A stretch of 64,000 bases of DNA, from NCBI GenBank assembly GCA_025454405.1, contig JALOON010000047.1, positions 1-64,000 of the forward strand. The letters run 5' to 3'. Source of the DNA: Oscillatoriaceae cyanobacterium Prado104. Its GTDB lineage: Bacteria; Cyanobacteriota; Cyanobacteriia; Cyanobacteriales; Microcoleaceae. The notes under the pieces were generated by a model. That model was not told where the DNA came from and searched no databases. It saw nothing but the letters and a program-made list of their open reading frames with translations. The translations under genes and the position numbers were made by a program. Of this stretch, positions 1,491 through 7,257 are shown in pieces. Each line of letters opens with the position of its first letter. Positions within the stretch are counted from its first letter, which is position 1.

Positions 1491-1693
1491 GCAGATCGAG
1501 TTATGTAGCGTAAAGTAATGCAGTGCATGGTGCGGACTATCTAGTGCATCGCAAAATTTTTTCTGGTATTTGCTCTGGTATTTGCAGGGGTTCGATCGCG
1601 AGAGTTTGACATTGCAATTTACCTGCTGCAATTTCAATTGAAGAAAAGCCCTCACAGTTGTGATGTTAATATTTTAGGTATCGATCGAAGAAT

Positions 1694-2791
1694 CTACAGA
1701 ATCGCAACAGGACGAAAACCAATTTCCCAGCTATGGGAGGTCGCAAATTCAAACCTGCGAATAGAAGAACGGCTATGAAACAAATACCAGCACCACGAAC
1801 CTCCACGCAATGGTCGGAATTCGTCCTGTGTTCTTGTGTACCAAGAACTGCCGTCAGTCGGTGCGCCATCATAGTTATCGTGCCATGTATCGCTGCACCA
1901 TTCCCAAACATTACCGTGCATATCATAAAGTCCAAATGGATTGGGAGGAAAACTCCCAACATTGGTTGTTCCTTTGAAGTAAAGCTGACGCAATGCAGGA
2001 TCGTTGCCTTCGTAGGTCGAATAATTAACTAAATCTGACGTTATTGTCTCGCCAAAATAGAAAGGAGTTGTCGTTCGGGCGCGACAAGCATGCTCCCATT
2101 CGGCTTCCGCAGGTAAACGATAACTTTTGCCAGTTTTTTCAGAAAGCTTCCGGCAGAATTCTACAGCTTCATTACAGCTTATATTTTCTACAGGACGTTT
2201 TTCCCCTCTAAAGTGCGATGGATTGTTTTCCATCACTGTTTGCCACTGCTCTTGAGTGATGGGGTATTTCCCTATATAAAAATCTGATACTGTTACTTGA
2301 TGCTGTGGCCTTTCATAAGCTAAGCTCTCTTCATTTGCTGGCGAACCCATCATAAATGTGCCTCCGGGAATGTAAACCATATCGAGTACAACTCCATTAC
2401 CTAAGTCTTCTCTGAAGTAACGAGCCACAGATTGAGAGCGACTGTTTTCTTTTCCTTCAGCATCGACTGCGATCGCATCAAATTCAAAGGCAGGGAGGTA
2501 GTCTTGAAACTGAGGTTTAATCTTTAAGTCATCTCGATTTTTCAGCAGTGAATGGGCAGCTAATTTCACCTGCATCGATTCATCGTGCAATGCTTGAATT
2601 ATCAAATCTAAACCGGCTTCTCCATATTTGAGTGCTTCGGAGAGTGCGGCGATTCTGGTTTCGATCGCGGGTGAGGCCAAGCGACTTTTAACACCGGGTA
2701 TGCCTCCAAGTACCGCAGCATTGACAGGAATTAAATTTTGACCTCCGAGAACGGCATCGTATTCTTTCGGTTCATTTTGATTCTCTGACAT
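1694..2791 (-). CDS. HEAT-repeat/SUMF1 (FGE-sulfatase fold) protein, possible DGR target
   Basis: This 365-residue protein starts with an Ala/Leu-rich HEAT-like helical region (about residues 35-95). It continues with a SUMF1/formylglycine-generating-enzyme-like C-type-lectin fold (about 110-365) marked by YIPGGTFMMGS, the helix SCNEAVEFCRKLSEKTGK, YRLPAEAEWEHACRA, GLYDMHGNVWEWC and RGGSW...IGFRP. The Cys pattern used by true FGE enzymes near the C-terminus is not evident, so an enzyme is unlikely. Between RGGSW and IGFR (residues 329-360) the surface positions are unusually aromatic and mixed, as in variable regions written by diversity-generating retroelements. No reverse transcriptase or template repeat lies in the window. 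The gene stands alone, and its start overlaps nothing. Confidence 0.8.
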   Translation of the reverse strand: MSENQNEPKEYDAVLGGQNLIPVNAAVLGGIPGVKSRLASPAIETRIAALSEALKYGEAGLDLIIQALHDESMQVKLAAHSLLKNRDDLKIKPQFQDYLPAFEFDAIAVDAEGKENSRSQSVARYFREDLGNGVVLDMVYIPGGTFMMGSPANEESLAYERPQHQVTVSDFYIGKYPITQEQWQTVMENNPSHFRGEKRPVENISCNEAVEFCRKLSEKTGKSYRLPAEAEWEHACRARTTTPFYFGETITSDLVNYSTYEGNDPALRQLYFKGTTNVGSFPPNPFGLYDMHGNVWEWCSDTWHDNYDGAPTDGSSWYTRTQDEFRPLRGGSWCWYLFHSRSSIRRFEFATSHSWEIGFRPVAIL

Positions 2792-3052: not shown

Positions 3053-3940
3053 TTAATGCGGTTTTTGACGGATTATTTCTAAAGTCGTTTGCACCTGATT
3101 TAATTGCTTGTGAAGTTCTTCTAACTTCTCTTCAAGATGAGATTCTGTTTCGTGGAGGAGCGCGGTCGCTACTTTTTTTTCAGTTGCGATCTGTTCTTGA
3201 TTGGCTTCTTCCAAGCTAGTAATCATCACCCCAACTAGCAAATTAATTACTATCATTGCCCCCAACATAATAAAAGTCACAAAAAATAAAGGACTCATGG
3301 GGGAAGTAGTAGGATGCTGGCAAAACTCTGCTAAACCGCCGTCGTATCCAACGCGATCGCATCCGTACACTTGAATATCCATCAGTTCGATCCATCCTTC
3401 GAGAGTTGCCATTTTAAATAAAGACAGCATCGAAGCACCTAAAGAACCAAAATGCAAGGGGTCGTTTTTCCCAAACATAAATGTGCCAGCGACACCATAG
3501 ATGTAAAATAATAAAGTCATCAGCAGCGCTACATAACCCATTGAAGGCAGACTTTTCAGAAGTGCGGAAACTAAAAGCTGCAATTTTGGTAAAGCTCGCA
3601 ATAATTTGAGAACTCGCAGCAGCCGCACCATCCGAATTACGAGTACGTAATTATTGTCGATCGGCAAAAAGCAAGCTACAACGATCGCAAAATCTAAGAT
3701 ATTCCAACCGTCCCCAAAGTAGCGCCAAGACTTCGGCCATTCGGCAGCAAGCTTGAGAAGGAACTCGCCGACAAAAATCCAGATAATGATGCGATCGAGA
3801 ATGTAGATCGGCAGAGCATACTTTGCGGCAATTTCGGGAACAGTCTCCAAACCTACCAAAACTCCAGCAACTATTATCGCAGCGATAATAAATAGCTGAA
3901 ATGCAGTAGAATCTACAATTTTTCTAATCTGATTTAACAT
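3053..3940 (-). CDS. Voltage-gated ion channel, BacNaV-like, with C-terminal coiled coil
   Basis: This 295-residue protein has a one-domain, six-helix channel layout: S1 at about 15-33, S2 47-65, S3 79-94, an S4 voltage sensor with Arg/Lys every third residue (RMVRLLRVLKLLRALPK, 103-119), S5 about 130-155, a pore helix and filter FKMATLEGWIELMD (about 175-188), and S6 215-242. Residues 245-290 form an acidic coiled coil, expected to hold the tetramer together. TLEGW matches the TLESW-type filter of bacterial sodium channels, so a Na+-selective or cation channel is likely. An extended loop between filter and S6 holds two cysteines (194, 207). It is monocistronic, with convergent or same-strand neighbours at a distance. 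Confidence 0.85.
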   Translation of the reverse strand: MLNQIRKIVDSTAFQLFIIAAIIVAGVLVGLETVPEIAAKYALPIYILDRIIIWIFVGEFLLKLAAEWPKSWRYFGDGWNILDFAIVVACFLPIDNNYVLVIRMVRLLRVLKLLRALPKLQLLVSALLKSLPSMGYVALLMTLLFYIYGVAGTFMFGKNDPLHFGSLGASMLSLFKMATLEGWIELMDIQVYGCDRVGYDGGLAEFCQHPTTSPMSPLFFVTFIMLGAMIVINLLVGVMITSLEEANQEQIATEKKVATALLHETESHLEEKLEELHKQLNQVQTTLEIIRQKPH

Positions 3941-6144: not shown

Positions 6145-7257
6145 ATGGCGCTCGTGTACACTGCCCTCAAGACCAAGTTAAAACTCACACCCCCACAAAC
6201 CGTGTTAATGGCAAAACACGCAGGTATTGCTCGGTTTACTTTTAACTGGGGACTGGCAACATGGCAAGCGCTTTATGCCCAAGGTGTCAAGCCGAATGCT
6301 TTGGTCTTGAAGAAATTTTTTAATAATCACGTTAAACCTGTATGTCCTTGGATTAAAGAATCCGGGATTTGCCAGAAAGTAACTCAATATGCCTTCGAGC
6401 ATCTGGGTCGAGCATTTAGCAACTTCTTGGAGGGTCAGAGTAATTATCCCAAGTTCAAAAACAAGGGCCGGCACGAGAGTTTTACCATCGACGCTAGTGG
6501 CAAACCGATCGCTGTGGGTGGCACTCGATTGAAGTTACCCACCATCGGCTGGGTATCAACTTATGAAGGCTTGCCCCATGTCACCACCAAAAAATTTACC
6601 ATTTCCCAAGAAGCGGGCAACTGGTACATCAGCTTCACCTATGAAATTGAGCCGTCAGTTACTGTTAAATCGCGAGATTTTATCGGTGTAGATTTGGGAA
6701 TCAAACAGTTAGCTACCCTGTCTTGTGGTGTGGTAATTGCCAATCCCCATGCTTTCAGAAAAGCTCGTCAATTACTCGCACGAATGCAGCGCCAGTTGCA
6801 GCGCAAACAAAAAGGCAGTAAACGATATGGGCGACACAAGTTAAGATTAGCAGCAGCTCATCAACGAGTCAAAAACATCAGACTCGATGCCACTCACAAA
6901 GCTACAACATACATCTGCAAAAACCACGCAGTTGTAGCAATTGAGAATTTAAATGTATCGGGAATGATGGCAAATCATAAACTGGCGGGTGCAGTTGCCG
7001 ACGCCAATTTTTACGAATTCGGGCGACAAATAGAGTACAAAGCACAACGCTATGGTTCCAGTGTAGTTTTGGTAGATAGGTGGTATCCATCTACTCAATT
7101 ATGTTCGAGTTGCTCTCACCAACAACCAATGCCTCTTAGTGTCAGAATCTATGAGTGTGATGCTTGTGGGTTGAAAGTAGATAGAGACTTGAATGCTGCA
7201 CTTAATTTGGAAAAATATGCTCGGGTGGCTAAGCCGAGCCTGGACACCGAGGGTTAA
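6145..7257 (+). CDS. tnpB: TnpB RNA-guided nuclease (IS200/IS605 family), orphan
   Basis: This 370-residue TnpB has an N-terminal helical domain with FTFNWGLATWQ, a RuvC-I Asp in GVDLGIKQLA (D183), a RuvC-II Glu in VVAIENLNVSGM (E267), a C4 zinc ribbon (C320, C323, C338, C341) and RuvC-III DRDLNAALNL. All catalytic positions are present, so the nuclease may be active. TnpB proteins use an RNA from the element's right end, overlapping the 3' end of tnpB, to cut at a TAM. Here that would be about 7150-7330, but I cannot delimit it. No TnpA is present, so transposition would need one in trans. A TATAAT box lies at about 6115. Confidence 0.93.
   Translation: MALVYTALKTKLKLTPPQTVLMAKHAGIARFTFNWGLATWQALYAQGVKPNALVLKKFFNNHVKPVCPWIKESGICQKVTQYAFEHLGRAFSNFLEGQSNYPKFKNKGRHESFTIDASGKPIAVGGTRLKLPTIGWVSTYEGLPHVTTKKFTISQEAGNWYISFTYEIEPSVTVKSRDFIGVDLGIKQLATLSCGVVIANPHAFRKARQLLARMQRQLQRKQKGSKRYGRHKLRLAAAHQRVKNIRLDATHKATTYICKNHAVVAIENLNVSGMMANHKLAGAVADANFYEFGRQIEYKAQRYGSSVVLVDRWYPSTQLCSSCSHQQPMPLSVRIYECDACGLKVDRDLNAALNLEKYARVAKPSLDTEG

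Follow-up and report, generated by a model that had tools for sequence, protein, structure and literature searches.

An FGE-fold gene of Oscillatoriaceae cyanobacterium Prado104 is probably a former remote DGR target

The window is the whole 64,000-nucleotide stretch that was analysed (contig JALOON010000047.1, positions 1 to 64,000). A gene on its minus strand (1694-2791) encodes a 365-residue protein of the FGE/SUMF1 (C-type-lectin-like) fold. The sole Pfam-A match of the protein is the FGE-sulfatase domain PF03781, which covers residues 137-362 (positions 1706-2383, minus strand; E 8.7e-52, 176.7 bits for a cut-off of 23.3). By sequence, the protein is homologous to PvdO (5hha, E 4.7e-35) and to TvpA, a Treponema DGR protein (PDB 2y3c, E 1.4e-23); formylglycine-generating enzymes are related too. 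The alignment with TvpA stops at RGGSW, just ahead of the variable part, so that the comparison covers what precedes it. Catalytic formylglycine-generating enzymes have an active-site cysteine pair near the C-terminus. In the one column that was checked, 18 of 19 relatives have a cysteine (CRSA/CRAA) and the window protein has a serine, unlike what is expected of a catalytic enzyme.

The N-terminal module of about 100 residues (2492-2791, minus strand) has no Pfam-A match. The same module (YDAVLGG...AVLGGI.GVK.RLASP) recurs elsewhere in the genome (loci L075, L076, L077, L078 and L079), where it is joined to WD40-like repeats (contigs C137, C29 and C57), to pentapeptide-like repeats (C101) or to another protein (C147), the repeats being typed by eye. 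It resembles an adapter that can be exchanged between proteins and that has no family name. Downstream of the FGE-fold gene lies a RuvX-like gene (PF03652; 464-841, minus strand), a conserved neighbour that marks synteny. Several copies of a palindrome-like repeat, for example AGAAACCSGGTTTCT, are found between the two genes. Repeats of this type are dispersed in the window (14 matches on both strands and in both forms, palindromic ones being perhaps counted twice) and also match several places in the loci of congeners. The window further contains an IS605-type OrfB/TnpB-like gene of 370 codons (6145-7257, plus strand) with OrfB_IS605, Cas12f1-like_TNB and HTH_OrfB_IS605 domains.

The last 37 codons of the FGE-fold gene (1697-1807) encode RGGSW, then 23 residues, then IGFRPVAIL. 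The original prediction delimited this segment correctly, from RGGSW to IGFRP, and miscounted the intervening residues as 22. The 23 residues (1724-1792, minus strand) occupy the place of a DGR variable region and have drifted in the window copy. They include 6 F/W/Y residues, compared with 36 of 328 upstream, and the AlphaFold model has pLDDT values below 50 over the variable part (residues 320-352). The argument that the codons are of NNY form, as expected from adenine changes in AAY, is weak: 16 of 23 codons have this form versus 172 of 328 upstream, which is not significant alone (p=0.07-0.08).

The segment is the most variable stretch of the gene. When its codons were aligned with those of seven orthologues, without the frameshifted copy of genome G009, mean diversity was 0.519 in the segment and 0.191 in the body. 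Equal conservation of the two parts had been named as fatal to the original idea; what is observed is far greater variability of the segment, in a comparison between species. DNA identity of the window copy with its orthologues is 77-82% in the body (dN/dS 0.29-0.46) and 44-52% in the variable region. At the amino acid level, the window copy has a mean identity of 0.16 in the variable region versus 0.43 for the G015 copy, while the bodies give 0.74 and 0.75, respectively.

In seven congeners, the orthologue is followed on its own strand by the same RuvX-like gene, which stands beside a homologue in G014 too. The neighbour of an eighth orthologue (G002) is not visible because the contig stops 412 bases past the gene. 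Upstream, no synteny was found among the short loci compared: the ion-channel gene at 3053-3940 matched its own locus only. In the seven syntenic orthologues and in G002, the C-terminus is a variable region, after which comes the homing tail common to target and template. Compared with the G014 template, these eight copies differ at 8-17 of 25 adenines and at 5-11 of 71 other bases (Fisher p from 0.014 to 1.9e-8). Thus, in seven relatives the same locus holds a DGR target. In the six closest orthologues (G004, G016, G007, G023, G013 and G002), DNA identity is 87-90% in the body and 62-75% in the variable region. Because the bodies are so much more alike than the variable regions, rewriting probably continued after the species split. 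The body dN/dS among these six (0.40-0.79) is above that of the pairs with the window gene and speaks against a simple story of purifying selection. As a control, a family of FGE paralogues was compared. Sixteen loci were chosen as likely members, of which 13 were members and 3 (in G001, G004 and G007) were not. In the 13 congeners, at most 2 of 23 residues depart from the commonest form. The fold is therefore not variable at its C-terminus by default.

In the window copy itself, the signature of a template is faint. Mismatches with the G014 template affect 16 of 25 adenines and 24 of 71 other bases (p=0.008), and those with the G041 and G001 templates affect 15 of 24 adenines and 22 of 72 other bases (p=0.006). 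In this second comparison the templates counted are those of G041 and G001, and variable regions of other lengths are left out (for instance G013 L016 and G011 L024). Conserved, non-variable paralogues (L039-L041) submitted to the same test give 14 of 24 adenines and 26-29 of 72 other bases (p=0.05-0.1). The adenine test alone hardly tells the window copy and an ordinary FGE C-terminus apart. It is therefore insufficient, and the case rests on synteny and orthology. With 24 of 71 non-adenine positions changed, derivation from a template can no longer be read from the letters of the window copy. Formerly fixed positions have changed as well (AV to LF, CRAA to SRSS). The homing tail (IMH-like) has also eroded. 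After gapped alignment, 30 of 54 positions are identical to the template in the window copy versus 36-43 of 54 in the orthologues. The tail after IGFR is lost, save for a 16-base remnant of its end (1642-1657, minus strand; 14 of 16 matches with orthologue tails), 36 bases beyond the earlier stop codon. With each of the 8 orthologue tails in turn, between 0 and 16 of 500 shuffles reached the best local score of the remnant.

The assembly of the genome (8.54 Mb, 161 contigs) is 99.94% complete. A DGR-type reverse transcriptase (RT) was expected somewhere in it. A search with PF00078 (RVT_1) at E ≤0.001 found three RTs, none of them of DGR type: a group II intron protein (C140), an RT adjoining cas1 (C103) and a retron type XIII RT (C119). 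The same profile recovered the full-length DGR RTs of G014, G041, G039 and G042 (E 2.2e-22 to 8.5e-17), which indicates that the search is sensitive enough. With a congener DGR RT as query, the best match in the genome is the Cas1-adjacent RT, at 29% identity, followed by fainter group II matches. This C103 RT was rejected as a DGR enzyme in view of its position beside cas1 and its low identity; its best scores are with a group II-like model (292.4 bits, below the model's cut-off of 300) and with a CRISPR-associated RT model. The template repeat predicted to match 1697-1807 did not turn up either: no DNA partner of the segment was found in the genome, with a congener template used as query too. 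An isolated 25-base match to the congener template on C101 (E 0.0095) has no continuation and was not retained as a template. Avd was not found in the genome, where the bAvd profile reaches at best 22.8 bits for a cut-off of 40; congener Avd ORFs reach 71-72 bits. Weak bAvd matches on C20 (165-residue ORF) and C10 (120-residue ORF) were judged by eye to be ordinary four-helix-bundle proteins.

Complete DGRs exist in the genus. An RT 71-100% identical to the G014 DGR RT was found in 5 of 29 genomes, the window genome being one of the 29: G014, G041, G039, G042 and G008. The G008 match is truncated, and the remaining matches listed in the genus have at most 33% identity to the G014 enzyme. In G014, the order is target gene, template, Avd-sized ORF (identified by eye) and RT, and the target match has one in-frame TGA. 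Profile matches confirmed Avd in G008 and G042. A putative G042 template proved to be the G042 variable region, and no template was identified in that genome. The G014 target differs from its own template at 15 of 30 adenines and 2 of 130 other bases, and the G001 target from its own at 13 of 30 and 3 of 130. A non-adenine difference in the 3' tail, C to G, is common to both target and template pairs and would fit a homing-site discriminator. The G001 template adjoins its target (L192, C155), and yet the RT search of the 29 genomes found no DGR RT in G001. The prediction of a remote DGR target survives in part. With adenine-biased orthologues and complete DGRs in the genus, the segment corresponds to a DGR variable region. 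That the gene is a target now is not supported: two of the three results named beforehand as refuting, no DGR-type RT and no template repeat, were obtained.

We propose, with a probability of about 0.8, that the gene was once a remote DGR target (a variable protein gene) and is now a fossil or frozen as one variant, its lineage having lost RT, Avd and template. A DGR RT would have copied an AAY-rich template in the sister species and presumably in the ancestor. The copy, mutated at adenines, would have overwritten the last codons of the FGE/C-type-lectin-fold gene, where the conserved 3' tail would have served for homing. We infer that the window copy was once rewritten in this way. Loss of RT, Avd and template from its lineage would then have ended the rewriting of the variable region. 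Afterwards, fixed positions would have drifted, most of the homing tail would have disappeared and the earlier stop codon would have arisen, although the losses may have come in another order. The reading frame has stayed open, so that the cell probably goes on making one frozen variant, which might serve as a binding protein, if it binds a ligand and is still in use. This reading is based on synteny and homology with adenine-biased genes, on the RT, Avd and template not being found and on the loss of the tail. Counting against a relict, the window copy scores little higher than conserved paralogues in the adenine test, no DGR RT was found in the eight orthologue genomes either and the assembly is in 161 contigs.

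Three other explanations were considered. First, the C-terminus could have been swapped in from an FGE paralogue by recombination or gene conversion, in which case the locus once held a variable region and the present segment never was one. In favour, the variable region has diverged along with the tail next to it, between a conserved body and a conserved downstream neighbour. However, no donor was found. The segment has no DNA partner in its own genome and has weak, short matches (at most 41 bits) in the order sample, where a DNA search with at most 4 candidates scored per genome gave hits in 12 of 195 genomes, its own included, the other 11 at E ≥3.7e-4. Moreover, the 23-residue spacing is kept and the tail remnant stands at the end of the region. 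We consider a swap improbable. Second, the gene could be an active remote target in a strain whose RT and template are absent from the assembly through a gap, a collapsed repeat or a lost plasmid. Assemblies can break at templates and variable regions, which are repeats; this assembly has 161 contigs, and congeners without a detected RT have variable regions that are near-perfect at non-adenine sites (1 of 72 mismatched in G009 L217 and G019 L031). However, the completeness is high, the window copy departs from every compared template at 22-24 of 71-72 non-adenine positions, and the homing tail, which active retrohoming should preserve, is missing. With no RT, template, Avd or intact tail found in the genome, we reject this possibility as slightly more improbable still. 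Finally, that the gene is an ordinary FGE-fold protein, never a DGR target, with an aromatic C-terminus due to plain divergence, is the least probable of the three: the non-significant NNY excess and the paralogue-like adenine bias would fit, but same-place orthologues with clear DGR variable regions and tails already disfavour it for this locus, and an ordinary paralogue family is nearly invariant in the 23 residues.

Former targets of this kind have precedents. Remote variable proteins and variable-protein homologues of DGRs have been described in cyanobacteria (PMC7517822), among them all3226 of Nostoc PCC 7120, a paralogue in which a remnant of TR-VR homology is left and which has no RT in its vicinity. 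The same paper suggests that diversification parts are removed once a good variant has been selected. Like the proteins described there, the window protein has a C-type-lectin-like C-terminal domain with a variable stretch near the 3' end of the gene, away from any RT. Unlike in Nostoc PCC 7120, where DGRs are still present, the searches of the whole window genome found neither RT nor template; the N-terminal module is also different. Treponema denticola isolates without RT and TR keep target genes that were read as remnants (PMC4891356). As in these isolates, which belong to another phylum, the target is retained and no core DGR was found; in contrast to them, the window copy in addition shows loss of the homing tail and drift at fixed positions. 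Possible DGR fossils have been reported in archaea (PMC4372165), and FGE/C-type-lectin targets have been proposed as sensors of conflict systems (PMC10907252, PMC7159879). Since leftover targets are already published, a single such gene is no big surprise. We did not find an account of the window gene in the literature on lost or degraded DGR targets, where one may still exist. What was a guess at a remote target becomes a testable case for the fate of a hypermutated receptor after loss of its mutator.

The congeners place this case in a series. No DGR RT was found by the RT search in any of the eight orthologue genomes, though their variable regions look recently rewritten; RTs could have been missed in the assemblies. 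Compared with the G001 template, variable regions L217 (G009), L031 (G019), L197 (G017) and L218 (G040) differ at 1-3 of 72 non-adenine positions and 11-15 of 24 adenines. The RT search detected no DGR RT in these four genomes. Very recent loss, an RT missed by the assembly or an RT supplied from elsewhere are alternative explanations for such fresh regions. Other RT-less variable regions have mismatches at 12 of 24 adenines and 5 of 72 other bases (G011), 16 of 24 and 15 of 72 (G018) and 18 of 24 and 19 of 72 (G020). Missing assembly pieces may explain some of the RT-less cases, but hardly these three, the assemblies of which consist of 1 to 6 contigs. Repeated DGR loss with targets kept is therefore likely in the genus.

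A bolder and rather doubtful extension is that the genus loses DGRs repeatedly and its targets stay, each lineage keeping one random binding variant, locked in the window copy by erosion of the tail. If so, the graded variable regions (non-adenine mismatches of 1/72 in G009 and G019; 5, 15 and 19/72 in G011, G018 and G020; 22/72 in the window) could date the losses and be used to ask whether selection keeps frozen variants as fixed receptors. The genus includes G014, where the target still stands with a template and an RT; G001, where target and template lack a detected RT; G009 and G019, with fresh variable regions and again no detected RT; and the decayed window copy. Such a series is a natural experiment that could show whether a DGR is needed permanently or is used temporarily to find a binding site.

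Two further loci of the window genome carry related sequences. The variable regions of paralogue L072 (C78) and of L101 in G014 (C343) differ at just 3 of 23 residues; this variable region was either frozen since before the species split or transferred between species. L081 (C150, 88341-88478) is the isolated 3' part of an FGE gene and ends in a variable-region-like segment, in an open frame of 88 residues; it is a gene fragment with a decayed variable region.
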